This document shows positions 1-4,858 of a DNA stretch of 64,000 nt, one piece after another. Numbering within the stretch: the first letter of the stretch is position 1; each line of letters starts with the position of its first letter. The notes under the pieces were generated by a model. That model did not search any database. It was not told the DNA's origin and saw nothing but the letters and a program-made list of their open reading frames with translations. Location: contig CAJXYP010000003.1 in the NCBI GenBank assembly GCA_913063225.1, forward strand, positions 1-64,000. Direction: 5' to 3'. Origin of the DNA: an uncultured Cellvibrionales bacterium (GTDB taxonomy: Bacteria > Pseudomonadota > Gammaproteobacteria > Pseudomonadales > GM7GCV1). A program made the position numbers and the translations under genes.

Positions 1-77
1 GGACCGGTAGTTCAGCTGGTTAGAATGCCGGCCTGTCACGCCGGAGGTCGCGGGTTCGAGTCCCGTCCGGTCCGCCA
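1..77 (+). tRNA. tRNA-Asp (GTC)
   Basis: The sequence folds as a complete tRNA. The 7-bp acceptor stem GGACCGG pairs with CCGGTCC, there is a G discriminator base, and CCA is encoded at 75-77. The anticodon stem 28-32/40-44 encloses the loop CTGTCAC, with anticodon GTC at 35-37, which reads Asp codons. The T-arm contains GGGTTCGAGTCCCG. The last 23 bases recur at 1310-1332, so the gene has served as an integration site and was rebuilt intact. Confidence 0.97.
55..77 (+). repeat. Putative att site, copy 1 (3' end of tRNA-Asp)
   Basis: This 23-bp stretch from the T-loop to the CCA end is identical to 1310-1332. tRNA 3' ends of this size are classic attachment sites for tyrosine-recombinase elements, and integration leaves one copy completing the tRNA and one at the far boundary. 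Identity stops at both edges (G54 versus C1309, A78 versus T1333), so the repeat is sharply bounded. The att assignment is inference; the repeat is seen directly. Confidence 0.85.
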
Positions 78-111
78 ATAGAATCAACAACTTACGACTC
101 TTTTACCCCTC

Positions 112-133
112 CGTGTCCAGTGCGTGTCCAGTG
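112..133. repeat. Tandem 11-bp repeat, likely integrase/excisionase arm sites
   Basis: CGTGTCCAGTG occurs twice head to tail with no spacer (112-122 and 123-133), 35 bp inside the tRNA-proximal att copy and directly beyond the stop of the excisionase-like gene. Short direct repeats at this distance are typical of recombinase arm-type sites in tRNA-integrated elements. The repeat is visible; its role is inferred. Confidence 0.6.
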
Positions 134-135
134 GT

Positions 136-450
136 CTACAGCTTCTCTTGCTCAGAAATCCGAATTCTAGCGGGCGTACAAACCTGATCATATTTAGGTG
201 GTTTTTTCTCATTTATTTCCTCCTTAAAATACTTGGGTTTAGTTGTACTTTTATAAGTTCGAATCCACTCTTCGAGATTCCGAACATGCACCAAAGTTTG
301 ATGCCCAATAATTTGAAAATGAACTCCTCGTTTCAAATGCCTATGAGTCCATCCATTCCAAACACCTGCCGAAATTCCAGATCTTTTGAGGTATTCATCT
401 CTCAATATCCACTGCACAATTTTTGCTTTCTCGATCATATCCTTCTCCAA
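136..450 (-). CDS. Excisionase-like (Xis) DNA-binding protein
   Basis: A 104-residue basic protein. Residues about 10-64 look like a winged-helix excisionase domain: a helix-turn-helix (LRDEYLKRSGISAGVWNGW), a basic wing (THRHLKRGVHFQ) and a closing segment ending NLEEWI. This resembles small Xis proteins of prophages and islands, which bend DNA at the att arm and steer the integrase toward excision. The gene reads toward the tRNA and stops next to the tandem 11-bp repeat, as expected for an element end. The C-terminal 35 residues are Lys-rich and unassigned. A second in-frame ATG lies four codons in. Family assignment is by pattern only. Confidence 0.65.
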   Translation of the reverse strand: MEKDMIEKAKIVQWILRDEYLKRSGISAGVWNGWTHRHLKRGVHFQIIGHQTLVHVRNLEEWIRTYKSTTKPKYFKEEINEKKPPKYDQVCTPARIRISEQEKL

Positions 451-878
451 TACAGATTAGCGCAAAGCTTGCTAGAACGCTTTGCTGTTATACCACTGGC
501 ATTTTGGAACAGCTTGCGACAGAATTGACGAGTAGCGAATTCGCCAAGGAGCCAAGTATCGCAGACAAAGATGGAGTCCTTAGTCAAGAAGAAAGAGACG
601 CAATAATTGAATGGTTGAAGAACCATGATGCTGGAAGCCCCAAATGCCCAGGCTGCCAAAAACGAGACTGGCTAGTTGGCGCTCATTACGTCGCGACCCC
701 AATCCATACGAATGAACGCACAATATTGGGTGGTCCTACATACGCTTATTTCACGTTAATTTGTAAGAATTGCGCCAACACTCTATTTTTTAATGCGGTT
801 GCCTCAGGTCTACTGCCTCGTACTCCAAAAAGTAAACCAGATGAAAAGTCTTCTTCTGAAGGGCAGGGAGGCAACTGA
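423..878 (+). CDS. Small CxxC...CxxC (zinc-ribbon-like) cargo protein
   Basis: The first in-frame ATG gives 151 residues, but its first 35 or so codons lie in the divergent promoter region and overlap the start of the excisionase gene. A TTG at 525 gives about 117 residues and may be the true start. The core has CPGC about residue 75 and CKNC about residue 117, with a conserved-looking middle (W, G, GGP, Y) and an FFNA...GLLP tail after the second pair. I recall this layout from a widespread family of small uncharacterised proteins; it looks like a treble-clef or zinc-ribbon fold. It is followed after 1 nt by a membrane protein gene, so the two are probably one transcription unit. Function unknown. 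Confidence 0.7.
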   Translation: MLSRSYPSPIQISAKLARTLCCYTTGILEQLATELTSSEFAKEPSIADKDGVLSQEERDAIIEWLKNHDAGSPKCPGCQKRDWLVGAHYVATPIHTNERTILGGPTYAYFTLICKNCANTLFFNAVASGLLPRTPKSKPDEKSSSEGQGGN

Positions 879-879
879 A

Positions 880-1260
880 ATGTCTAATGATGAGCAGGCA
901 AACGAACGCTCTACAATCGACTCAGGTCAGACCGGCGCACAGATAAATCAAACCTATATAAAACGAACGCAAAAATGCATAGCCGTAAATAAATCAGACC
1001 TTGAAGAAAATTTAACTTTTGGCGCTTTGGAAAGCTGCTTAAAGGGCTTTGGGCTCTTCTTTCTATCAGGCGCTCTTTGGCTTGGAATAGAAGAAGTTTT
1101 TGAAATACTTGCGATTGAAGATTGGATATTCACCCCGACGATATTATTTTGCGCTCTTGCGGCAATTTTTGGAGCCGTGCTTCTTGGTTGTGGGGTGGTT
1201 GTAGGAAGCCTACGAAAGAAAAAAATAACCGCAATTTTTAACGAAACTGAGGTTGACTAA
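880..1260 (+). CDS. Two-helix membrane protein, element cargo
   Basis: A 126-residue protein from ATG 880, preceded by a strong ribosome site (GGGCAGGGAGG) inside the end of the upstream gene. The stop of that gene is 1 nt away, so translation is probably coupled. The first 45 residues are polar and Gln/Thr-rich. Two hydrophobic segments follow, about 50-75 and 85-113, with a short acidic loop between, then a basic KKKK-type stretch and an acidic tail. The likely topology is a hairpin with both ends in the cytoplasm. No family is recognised. Pairing with the CxxC protein inside a mobile element suggests a two-protein cargo function, which cannot be named from sequence. Confidence 0.7.
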   Translation: MSNDEQANERSTIDSGQTGAQINQTYIKRTQKCIAVNKSDLEENLTFGALESCLKGFGLFFLSGALWLGIEEVFEILAIEDWIFTPTILFCALAAIFGAVLLGCGVVVGSLRKKKITAIFNETEVD

Positions 1261-1309
1261 TCTACTAATGGAAATACTCAGAGACGCTCACAGAGAGTTA
1301 AACGAAGAC

Positions 1310-1332
1310 TTCGAGTCCCGTCCGGTCCGCCA
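1310..1332 (+). repeat. Putative att site, copy 2 (distal)
   Basis: Identical over 23 bp to the tRNA-Asp 3' end at 55-77 and in the same orientation, with no tRNA body upstream of it. It marks the distal boundary of the element. The cargo operon ends 49 nt before it. Confidence 0.85.
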
Positions 1333-1571
1333 TTATCTGTTCAAAATCAATATTTTATATTGATCTTCAGCCCACATACCATCTCATTTCTGAAATATCT
1401 CTGACATCTTTGGCTGGGCCTTTTCAGCGAAAGGTATTCAACCGTTCTCGATTCAAACCGATCATCTCAGATTCAAGATGGCTCTCATAAACGGACATAC
1501 AAAGACCCTGCGGCAATTATGTCTTTGGCTTTTAATTTGCTTTGCTAGAACTTTGAAAAGGTAGTTCCATA

Positions 1572-3521
1572 TTATGGAGACACATTCAGAGAAGGATTGT
1601 GGTCGAAGAAATTGAACGGCGCGAGTGTAAATCCGACCCAGTGCGCTGGCATCACGGGCCAGTCTTCACTTCGCGGAATATGATGGAAGCCCACCGTATA
1701 CCAGGACACGATATCAGTGTTGGCAATTAGTCTGTCTGCGCTCACCCAGTTGCCGAGCGTATCCGAGCCATCGCTTTGCACAGAGAACTCACCTCCCGCG
1801 TATCGCTCCCGTGCATCGTATGGTGTCACCCAATACTGGTTGTCGACATAGTCATTACGTTTCACAGGCATATCCTCAACATCAAGTAAAGAGTGCGCAA
1901 CGCTTCCACCAGGTATCAACACGTAACCCGGATTTTGCTTGAGGCCGTTCTTGATGTTTGGATTGAGGATCGCCAAATAAGCTGGTGTCTGTGTATGTAT
2001 TTTTGTAACTGCTGCTGTTTCGCTTTGCGGAAATTCTCGCTGGACCGTCCAGATTGATGTTCTCGGGACATCATCGATGACAGTAGTGGGCACCATCTTC
2101 GCCTTCATAAAAGAATTTTGTTCACCATCAATATCAAAGTCGATTCGAAAATTGAAGAAGTGAGAATGATTTGCCGCGACGATATTGGGGCGAATCAAAG
2201 TGCCAAAACGCGTATCTTCTGCTGCTGTTGGTGATTCCATATCGGTCGCCGCTACCGCTTTTACTGCATCGATACCTACTGCACCAACCATCGCTTTCAT
2301 TGAACCGTCTTGCTTAAAGACGTAGTCCATCAAGTAATCGTAATTGCCGACGGCAGCCGCGTAACGAACTACCAGATCGGTTGCGGCACGCCCATCGGCT
2401 CGTCTCCGCCAGATCGGATCACCAATCGTACGTTCGAATATGCAAATAGTAGCTTCACGCTCTTCGACAGTGCCGTCGAAATCTGGGCTTGGCGTGTTCA
2501 GATAAGTCGCATGTTCCGGGCAATCGACGCCAGGCGTCAACGTCGTCATGGCGTCACCGAAACCATACTCACCACTGTCCATATATGTGCGCCAATACCA
2601 TCCCTCGCTCGGATCTGAATAGGGTACGAACACCTCTGACAGGTACATTTCGTATAGCACCGAGCGCCAGGTATCGCCGTCGCGCACTTCGACGTTGTTG
2701 AGCATCACACCCGGCCGATCATCTACACTAAATCGAAACTTCCAGATATCCCAACTTACACCCGAACCGTCTATTTCATAACCAACGCCATCGGCCTGAG
2801 ACATCTGCGTCTGATGTGCTTCTTCACCACGCTCACCAAAACGCTCCAGAATCTCCTCTTCACTATGTCCCCATGGGTCTTGCGGAAGCGGCACAATACC
2901 GGTGTCAACGAAATCAATGACCGTTTCACTAAGTACGTCTACCGTTACAACCACACCCGCGACTTGCACGTAGGCGGATACTTCAGACTGCCTTATGCTG
3001 CAAGTAACTTTGAAGTTGCGTTGTGCCTGCTCTGCAACCGTACCGAAATTACCTGAAGCGAGGCCGGTGCATCGCAACATATCGAAGTCCGTAATACCCC
3101 TCTGGCCCATCGAGTCGACGAAACGTGGATCGGCCAGAGCAACTCTGTTGGCCGTGCCCATGTCTATACTGGTCAACATTCCTTGTCCCGCAGACTCATC
3201 CCAAGAAGTTACTGCGTTGCTCACAAGGTCTACTTCGGCACGGAAGAACTGCTTGTCAATCATTACCGTTGCAATCGCGACGCGTGGAAATGACTCCCCT
3301 GGCGACCATTGAGTAACAAAAGACTTTGTAGGTTGTTTCAACTCAACCGAGTTATAGATCGTGTTTTCGTCAACACTGCTAGCAGTCGCAAGAACCCTGA
3401 ACACATCAGCATATTCGTCAGCGGATAAGGAATCGAGTGGATGATCCTGCGCTACAGCGACGATGGAAAACAGACAAGAACAAGTGGCAATTACCACAAA
3501 ATGAGTTATAGAGAATGCCAT
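1572..3521 (-). CDS. Exported copper-containing primary-amine oxidase
   Basis: Copper/topaquinone amine oxidase: oxidises primary amines to aldehydes with release of ammonia and hydrogen peroxide, here probably in the periplasm. Numbered from an upstream ATG at 3584 (670 residues), the catalytic base is Asp336 in YMDSGEYGFG, the TPQ precursor is Tyr415 in GNYDY, and copper ligands are His473 and His475 in NHSHFFN plus a His in GFHHIP (634/635). I prefer the ATG at 3521 (649 residues): it has AAGGA 7 nt upstream and gives a clean signal peptide ending AVAQ. The 3584 start also has a ribosome site. No partner genes are adjacent; the gene stands alone next to the tRNA-Asp element. Confidence 0.92.
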   Translation of the reverse strand: MAFSITHFVVIATCSCLFSIVAVAQDHPLDSLSADEYADVFRVLATASSVDENTIYNSVELKQPTKSFVTQWSPGESFPRVAIATVMIDKQFFRAEVDLVSNAVTSWDESAGQGMLTSIDMGTANRVALADPRFVDSMGQRGITDFDMLRCTGLASGNFGTVAEQAQRNFKVTCSIRQSEVSAYVQVAGVVVTVDVLSETVIDFVDTGIVPLPQDPWGHSEEEILERFGERGEEAHQTQMSQADGVGYEIDGSGVSWDIWKFRFSVDDRPGVMLNNVEVRDGDTWRSVLYEMYLSEVFVPYSDPSEGWYWRTYMDSGEYGFGDAMTTLTPGVDCPEHATYLNTPSPDFDGTVEEREATICIFERTIGDPIWRRRADGRAATDLVVRYAAAVGNYDYLMDYVFKQDGSMKAMVGAVGIDAVKAVAATDMESPTAAEDTRFGTLIRPNIVAANHSHFFNFRIDFDIDGEQNSFMKAKMVPTTVIDDVPRTSIWTVQREFPQSETAAVTKIHTQTPAYLAILNPNIKNGLKQNPGYVLIPGGSVAHSLLDVEDMPVKRNDYVDNQYWVTPYDARERYAGGEFSVQSDGSDTLGNWVSADRLIANTDIVSWYTVGFHHIPRSEDWPVMPAHWVGFTLAPFNFFDHNPSLNVSP

Positions 3522-3988
3522 TGATAATCCTTGATATTTTGAATACCCATTTTGGATAAAAAGTGACTTTATTGGGAAATACATTGCTTTCCTAGGATCT
3601 GCTTACTGAACTTGCGCTAGCTTAACCGGCCATCTCATTTAACAGATAGCAAATGACAAAATGCGGAGCGCAAACGATCGACTGCAAATGCAGCTGAACG
3701 CGAAGCTATATATTAAAAGGCTAACTGATTTACTTTGGTCCAATAAGTACTATTTACTTATAGTTGTGTTTAATATTATCGATAGCTCTCAGGGTTAGTA
3801 AGTCACAACAAATTTGCCAAGCGGGTGTGTCGATTGCCGGCGGTCCCGTCACATGCAGTAACTAGAGTACTGCAGCTCACAAGACATCTATCCACAACCT
3901 AATATTTACAAATCTCTACCCCCCAGCGACTAAACGACTCCCGCAGAAACTGGTATGGTTCACATTCTAGAAATTAATTGACCTATTC
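3522..3988. other. Divergent intergenic region, amine oxidase / nadK
   Basis: About 470 bp with frequent stops in all frames and no gene visible. It must hold the divergent promoters. The only clear structure is the inverted repeat at 3743-3761. Confidence 0.6.
3743..3761. promoter_or_regulatory. Operator-like inverted repeat
   Basis: ATAAGTA, 5-nt spacer, TACTTAT: a perfect 7-bp inverted repeat of 19 bp overall. It lies in the non-coding gap between the divergent amine oxidase and nadK genes, about 220 bp from each start. The symmetry suggests a dimeric regulator site; which regulator and which gene are unknown. Confidence 0.35.
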
Positions 3989-4858
3989 ATGTTTAAAAGC
4001 ATTGGAATTATCGGCTTTGTCGACAATCTATTAGTTCGAGAAACTGTCAATCGACTGATCCAGTATCTCGAGGAATACGATTGCGAATACTTTGTTGAAG
4101 AAGATACGTGCAACCTCAGCAAATTACCGAAAGACAAGCACTCCTGCAGCCGCGCAGAAATGGGTGAGTCCTGCGACCTTATAGTGGTTGTGGGCGGCGA
4201 TGGCAGCATGCTGCACGCAGCTCGGGATATGGTCGACTATCAAGTTCCTCTATTAGGAGTTAACCGCGGCCGATTAGGGTTTTTGACTGATATTCCGCCA
4301 ACCGAGCTAGAGCAAGAAGTCGGCGAAGTACTCAAGGGCAACTTCGTCAGCAGCGACCGTTTTATGCTCGAATGCGAATTGGTGCGCGATGGAAAGGTTG
4401 TGGATAATGGCATTGCGCTAAATGACATCGTATTGCAGCCCAGAGATTCCATTCGGATGATCGAATTTAGTCTCGGTATCAACGAGCAATATGTCTATAC
4501 CCTTAGATCCGATGGTCTCATTGTTTCTACGCCCACTGGTTCCACGGCGTATGCTTTATCCGGTGGTGGACCCATTGTTCACCCGAGCATTAACGCAATC
4601 AATATCGTGCCTATTAATCCGCATACGCTGAGCAACAGGCCCATAATTGTTGACGGCAACAGTGAGCTGGAACTCGAGATTTCAGAGCACAATGAAGTCA
4701 AGGCTCAGGTAGTTTGTGACGGCCAAAACCACATACTCAGCCAATGGGGTGACAAGGTTCGTATTCGCAGGAAGCAAACCCAGATTAAGCTAATTCACCC
4801 CAGCGCCCACAGCTTTTACGAGACCTGTAGAAGCAAACTCCACTGGGCACAAGACTAA
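3989..4858 (+). CDS. nadK: NAD kinase
   Basis: Phosphorylates NAD to NADP, the only de novo route to NADP. At 289 residues it is of typical length. Signature motifs: GGDGSML at 69-75 (catalytic Asp) and GSTAYALSGGGP about 182-193 (glycine-rich substrate loop). The second motif reads ALNDIVL where most bacterial enzymes have ALNE; Asp replacing Glu is conservative. It is the first gene of an operon: its TAA is followed immediately by the ATG of the rhomboid gene, and yeaC overlaps that. Cytoplasmic. Confidence 0.96.
   Translation: MFKSIGIIGFVDNLLVRETVNRLIQYLEEYDCEYFVEEDTCNLSKLPKDKHSCSRAEMGESCDLIVVVGGDGSMLHAARDMVDYQVPLLGVNRGRLGFLTDIPPTELEQEVGEVLKGNFVSSDRFMLECELVRDGKVVDNGIALNDIVLQPRDSIRMIEFSLGINEQYVYTLRSDGLIVSTPTGSTAYALSGGGPIVHPSINAINIVPINPHTLSNRPIIVDGNSELELEISEHNEVKAQVVCDGQNHILSQWGDKVRIRRKQTQIKLIHPSAHSFYETCRSKLHWAQD

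Follow-up and report, generated by a model that had tools for sequence, protein, structure and literature searches.

The first 1,332 positions of the window (the whole stretch of 64,000 nucleotides analysed here) hold a 1.25-kb unit that is a site-specific insertion at a tRNA-Asp gene, bounded by attL and attR, and that we read, with a probability of roughly 0.6, as what a deletion has left of an island or prophage that had integrated at tRNA-Asp. The att-bounded unit measures 1255 bp and contains three likely genes only, and it shows no sign of genes for replication, packaging, or transfer. Between the att cores lie a tandem 11-bp repeat (112-133), a minus-strand ORF (136-450), and two plus-strand ORFs, one ending at 878 and the other running from 880 to 1260. 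The features of the unit and its right-hand surroundings are as follows.

1..77, plus strand: tRNA-Asp (GTC), the attachment gene, identified with ARAGORN and Rfam RF00005 (70.3 bits) and letter-identical to the tRNA-Asp of the genus-mate G002.
55..77, plus strand: attL core, the 23-bp tRNA 3' end from T-loop to CCA; exact repeat, 2 copies genome-wide.
112..133, plus strand: putative tandem arm-type site, two copies of CGTGTCCAGTG, 35 nt past the tRNA; the motif is also in the viral contigs L065, L066, L067, and L079.
136..450, minus strand: an ORF of 104 aa, or of 100 aa if it begins, as is likely, at ATG438, that points towards the tRNA; it resembles an excisionase in position and to the eye only.
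504..878, plus strand: cargo gene 1, a double-CxxC, zinc-ribbon-like protein, as indicated by PHROG phrog_4293, a plasmid homologue, and alignments.
880..1260, plus strand: cargo gene 2, encoding a membrane protein of 126 aa for which two helices are predicted (hydropathy peaks of 2.59 and 1.55), its position and topology being as in the plasmid and phage units described below.
1310..1332, plus strand: attR core, the displaced 23-bp tRNA 3' fragment; exact repeat, continuing as CCATTATC.
1572..3584, minus strand: copper amine oxidase (Pfam PF01179, 1.4e-122), outside the att-bounded unit and absent between tRNA-Asp and NAD kinase in the relatives G002 and G125.
3989..4858, plus strand: NAD kinase (Pfam PF20143/PF01513; synteny), the conserved right-hand neighbour.

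The first-pass annotation of this DNA had described the last 23 bp of the tRNA as being repeated exactly at the far edge of the unit, and this held up at the scale of the genome. The sequence TTCGAGTCCCGTCCGGTCCGCCA at 55-77 is found again without a mismatch at 1310-1332, and these are the only 2 copies in the whole 2.26-Mb, 97% complete genome (96.8%) when up to 3 mismatches are allowed. By our own arithmetic (4^-23 times the number of positions), the chance of a 23-bp match inside 1.3 kb is about 1e-11. The same genome scan, again with up to 3 mismatches, returned no third att copy beyond the copper amine oxidase. Position 1 of the window is the end of its 136-kb contig (C3) as well as the first base of tRNA-Asp, and because the window starts there, the left flank of the unit lies on another contig (C14, ending in tRNA-Val). 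The end of C14 reads queD, tRNA-Val, and then 66 bases of Illumina Nextera adapter, and the contig break just before the window therefore probably is technical. This adapter, with its index sequence, was left in the assembly after tRNA-Val at positions 81122-81187 of C14 (L064:2123-2188).

The corresponding loci of relatives were found by searching for the right-hand neighbour, NAD kinase, and empty sites, which the first-pass annotation had named as a check on the insertion, were recovered at both the genus and the family level. Only 138 bp separate tRNA-Asp from NAD kinase in G002 (same genus) and 168 bp in G125 (same family), with the gene order queD - tRNA-Val - tRNA-Asp - NAD kinase in both. 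After the core, the empty site of G002 reads CCATTTTC, which agrees with the continuation of the right-hand copy in the window (CCATTATC) and not with that of the left-hand copy (CCAATAGA), as is expected of an attR adjoining the old chromosome. Beyond the att-bounded unit, the window has a further 2.6 kb with the copper amine oxidase, which has no att repeat of its own. A third relative, G066, carries 3.1 kb of different genes between tRNA-Asp and the kinase (contig C12; L057:5492-8616), which by reading are enoyl-CoA hydratase-, aldo/keto reductase-, and dehydrogenase-like. Judging from these loci, the gap between tRNA-Asp and NAD kinase (window 1333-3988) is a variable insertion hotspot in the family.

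The tandem repeat at 112-133 looks like a genuine integrase arm site. When the motif GTGTCCAGT-NN-GTGTCCAGT was searched in 2.9 million viral contigs, 3 of the 5 matches adjoined a tyrosine integrase and a tRNA 3' end. For a shorter motif, an integrase and a tRNA T-loop lay within about 130-250 bp of the match in 4 of 22 cases, as against 0 of 17 for a reversed-motif control, a difference that by itself is not significant; the weight that we give to the arm-site reading comes from the rarity with which random positions fall so close to both an integrase and a tRNA end. With this, the earlier description of the repeat as arm-site-like gains support. Similar to the window, the viral contig L066 (IMGVR_UViG_3300010362_000062) has a tRNA 3' end as its core followed, about 33 nt on (35 nt in the window) and in the same orientation, by the pair GTGTCCAGT-NN-GTGTCCAGT, there reading GTGTCCAGTTTGTGTCCAGT. 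Unlike the window, L066 uses another tRNA and carries an integrase and a second arm pair across the core from the first pair. L065, L067, and L079 differ in having their integrase on the tRNA-3' side. The region of the arm repeat had no match in plasmids and only weak Acinetobacter matches (E=6) in phages. Across L065, L066, L067, and L079, GTGTCCAGT repeats flank tRNA-type attP cores beside the integrases of seemingly unrelated phages, and it is possible, from sequence comparison, that the repeat is a widespread arm-site motif. Separately, GTGTCCAGT-like repeat arrays were seen upstream of phage terminase-like genes with no integrase near (L068:900-1000 and L069:8061-8370).

The unit had been described as lacking an integrase, and a Phage_integrase profile search extended this to the entire 136-kb contig. 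Elsewhere in the genome, the profile matches six loci, namely XerC, XerD, a fragment, and three others, these being a 343-aa integrase on C5, a 373-aa recombinase on C9, and a tRNA-Leu island integrase on C11. The first-pass annotation had also raised the prospect of an integrase with matching arm repeats elsewhere in the same genome, and on this point the search went against it, with a clustered GTGTCCA arm repeat at 0 of the 6 loci of this 96.8%-complete genome. A resident helper integrase was thus rejected, all six candidate loci being without such arms, though a helper may also arrive from outside the genome. The 343-aa integrase on C5 belongs to a possible small island near a tRNA-Arg (C5:63000-75000; L027), together with a replication-initiator-like protein (phrog_3584, 1.3e-8); the right end of this possible island was not found. 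Near attR, no arm-like sequence was detected at up to 2 mismatches, save one match inside the core itself.

The two alternatives offered at first were a satellite-like element mobilised in trans and a deleted island, and of these the deleted island fits better, the satellite being less supported. The attR of the unit has no arms, whereas L066 keeps its integrase and second arm pair on that side, which favours a deletion remnant over a live satellite. With an ancestor laid out as in L066, the one viral contig on which this comparison is based, a single attR-proximal deletion would explain both missing features; in L065, L067, and L079, however, the integrase is on the tRNA-3' side, and the deletion path is therefore inferred. 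Acting through GTGTCCAGT arm sites, a tyrosine integrase would once have inserted the island at the tRNA-Asp 3' end. A later deletion would have taken the integrase gene and the arms on the attR side, so that what survives is the two att cores, the arm pair by attL, one small gene placed like an excisionase, and the two-gene cargo. The ancestor could as well have been a prophage as an ICE or IME; no intact relative was found in the genome and viral collections. Counting against a remnant, each of the three ORFs is intact, their packing is tight, and not even a fragment of an integrase is left. Some integrases, moreover, may not need arms on both sides.

The same intactness is what would be expected of a live minimal satellite, which would make use of a helper's integrase in trans while retaining only its att and arm sites and a directionality factor of its own. 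The Xis-like ORF stands uninterrupted beside intact arm sites and reads towards the tRNA as does the small gene of L065, the genes of the unit are compactly packed, and relatives have empty sites. We nevertheless consider such a satellite unlikely, as attR has no arm sites, the same genome holds no resident integrase locus with matching arms, and the Xis-like protein shows no excisionase similarity. Neither was a second copy of the unit found; the Xis-like protein occurs in 0 of the 145 other genomes of the order, and the genome and viral collections yielded no close relative. The positive support for a live satellite consists of the intact ORFs and one arm pair.

The identification of the minus-strand gene as an excisionase, made in the first-pass annotation, did not find confirmation in any profile, sequence, or usable fold match. 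The ORF at 136-450 is open, its 104 aa being counted from a TTG; the ATG at 438, after GGAGAAGGAT, is the better start, and the Shine-Dalgarno-like GGAGAAGG ahead of it makes a good ribosome-binding site. Read by eye, the protein has an Xis-like pattern, with a short helical start and then GVHF...LEEWI, and it points towards the tRNA, as does a small gene that lies upstream of the L065 integrase. However, the 104-aa protein had 0 matches in Pfam, PHROGs, NCBIfam, PADLOC, and PDB sequences (trimmed query, E up to 10 in some). A search for DUF1233 (PF06806) in 229 genomes of the class gave no match and is uninformative, its controls being likewise silent. AlphaFold2 run without an alignment gave a pLDDT of 55 for the full length and 71 for the trimmed protein, and in the latter single-sequence model (residues 1-74) a helix is followed by three strands and another helix. 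Foldseek and VIA-align returned only unrelated weak matches, with no significant fold match. Pattern scans and tblastn with the Xis-like and the membrane proteins found no relatives in the collections tried, bar a weak phage match (E=0.7).

These results bear on a further explanation, in which the ORF at 136-450 is an unrelated small gene or a chance ORF and the unit a plain two-gene cargo island. This is compatible with the other histories, and we hold it to be a serious prospect at somewhat less than even odds. In line with it, there is no profile, sequence, or fold match, and the codon score of the ORF (-0.03) falls between those of genes (0.15) and antisense frames (-0.08). On the other hand, the ORF has its ribosome-binding site and outscores the longer ORF that overlaps it antisense (-0.03 vs -0.13). 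PHROGs also misses the xis presumed, from its position, beside the integrase of L065, and the negative result for the 104-aa ORF is therefore weak evidence. We treat the protein as an unproven candidate excisionase.

The proposed cargo, a CxxC/CxxC protein coupled to a two-helix membrane protein, proved correctly described. The start of cargo gene 1 is uncertain (TTG at 504 or TTG at 525), with the conserved part beginning at about 579, and cargo gene 2 begins 1 nt past its end. The match to phrog_4293 has an E-value of 6.9e-5 for the window protein, 9.1e-6 for a plasmid homologue, and 1.6e-6 for an integron homologue. The plasmid homologue, from E. coli, is 34% identical over 81 aa (E=9e-5) and is carried by mobilizable, ColE1-like plasmids of 2.7 kb, found in E. 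coli and Salmonella, that also encode Rop and MobA; there, the end of the CxxC gene is overlapped by 4 bp by the gene for a 134-aa protein with two predicted membrane helices (pair at positions 228-901 of pDETEC71; L021:228-901). The integron pair, in genome G165, consists of a 102-aa homologue and then a membrane protein of 91 aa that shows a single clear hydropathy peak (L061:270-853). It lies within a cassette array next to genes that, by reading, are recG and an integrase of the integron type. Read by eye, an attC-like site precedes this pair and a more degenerate one follows it; an automatic attC scan returned no site. The neighbours of the pair in this array (L061:1000-1964) read like a type VI amidase effector and its immunity protein. 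In the Arthrobacter phage Shoya, gp27 and gp28 overlap by 4 bp, with two hydropathy peaks in gp28 (L104:2366-3195), and sit between an esterase gene and an HTH/integrase region; the annotation of gp27 looks too short. A fifth CxxC homologue, in G315, has no adjoining membrane-protein gene.

Pairwise comparison links the CxxC proteins, with E-values as low as 1e-12. The membrane proteins hardly resemble each other (window vs plasmid, E=0.04), and their kinship therefore rests on place and topology. Weak CxxC-protein matches in three genomes of the class (G217, G244, and G466) were rejected as chance, those in G217 and G466 being ordinary housekeeping regions and that in G244 lying inside an 843-aa open frame. 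A profile of three CxxC proteins searched against 391 genomes of the order found the window only, plus weak matches, two of which are broken by stops. PADLOC gave no match for the window and plasmid cargo proteins, the libraries searched assigned the pair no function, and the cargo accessions were mentioned in none of the papers searched. That a coupled pair turns up in four mobile vehicles so different from each other suggests a portable function, and its range, which extends from Gammaproteobacteria to a phage of Arthrobacter, points to selection acting on the two genes together. A soluble sensor with a small membrane effector is the layout of many phage-defence systems. We infer that the cargo is most likely a small unit of this kind, serving phage defence or exclusion and repeatedly picked up by mobile DNA.

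In a further rival history, a small element of another kind, plasmid-like or phage-derived, would have been integrase-less on arrival, been integrated once by a co-infecting element, and been immobile since. The occurrence of the pair on such tiny vehicles as the 2.7-kb plasmids and one integron cassette is in keeping with this, as is the lack of replication, packaging, and transfer genes in the unit. We find it improbable, however, and more so than the live satellite, as the attP arm sites beside the core suggest an ancestor with its own integrase and one arm set would still be missing. More doubtful again is the fullest form of the satellite, in which a live 1.25-kb element would retain only att sites, a single arm pair, and a directionality factor belonging to a new family. 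Whichever incoming integrase recognises GTGTCCAGT arms at tRNA-Asp would mobilise this element, and its cargo would be an undescribed two-gene membrane defence unit found also on plasmids, integrons, and phages.

The preferred reading, a deletion remnant, places the unit close to cis-mobilizable elements (CIMEs), which have kept their att sites and lost their recombination and transfer genes (PMC5704250; PMC7563491). Like these, the unit is att-bounded, has no integrase and no transfer genes, and keeps cargo. Its cores show the retained attL and attR (a 23-bp exact repeat, with empty sites in relatives), the arms on the attR side being missing, and none of its three likely genes matches integrase, conjugation, or mobilization families. 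The classical CIMEs of Streptococcus salivarius span 1.2-13 kb (PMC7563491), which puts 1.25 kb at the lower edge of known sizes. Unlike a CIME, the unit has no ICE, IME, or other tRNA-Asp element in tandem, keeps a possible directionality factor, and has lost one arm set. As descent from an ICE or IME is not demonstrated, we say that the unit works like a CIME rather than that it is one; it would be immobile alone, and its movement would depend on a tRNA-Asp-specific element inserting next to it and on joint excision of the two.

The ssrA islands of Dehalococcoides, 15 of which lack the integrase module (PMC3146451), likewise have an RNA gene at one edge and a repeat of its 3' end at the other, with no integrase module and with variable cargo. 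In contrast to the unit in the window, they form many tandem islands and have sister islands with a serine integrase. The unit also shares with Islander islands a tRNA gene, a displaced 3' fragment in the same orientation, and the island between them. However, Islander applies an integrase filter and a 2-kb minimum length to tRNA-targeted tyrosine-integrase islands (PMC4383910), and the unit, at 1255 bp and with no integrase on board, would be discarded.

As an integration event, the unit is a clean but ordinary small integrase-less island. In several viral contigs that seem unrelated to each other, the GTGTCCAGT-NN-GTGTCCA motif appears to mark integrase arms at tRNA att sites, and it could help to find the integrase-less islands that Islander-type filters discard. 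The cargo pair is the part of the unit worth following, and it can be tested directly as a defence or exclusion unit.
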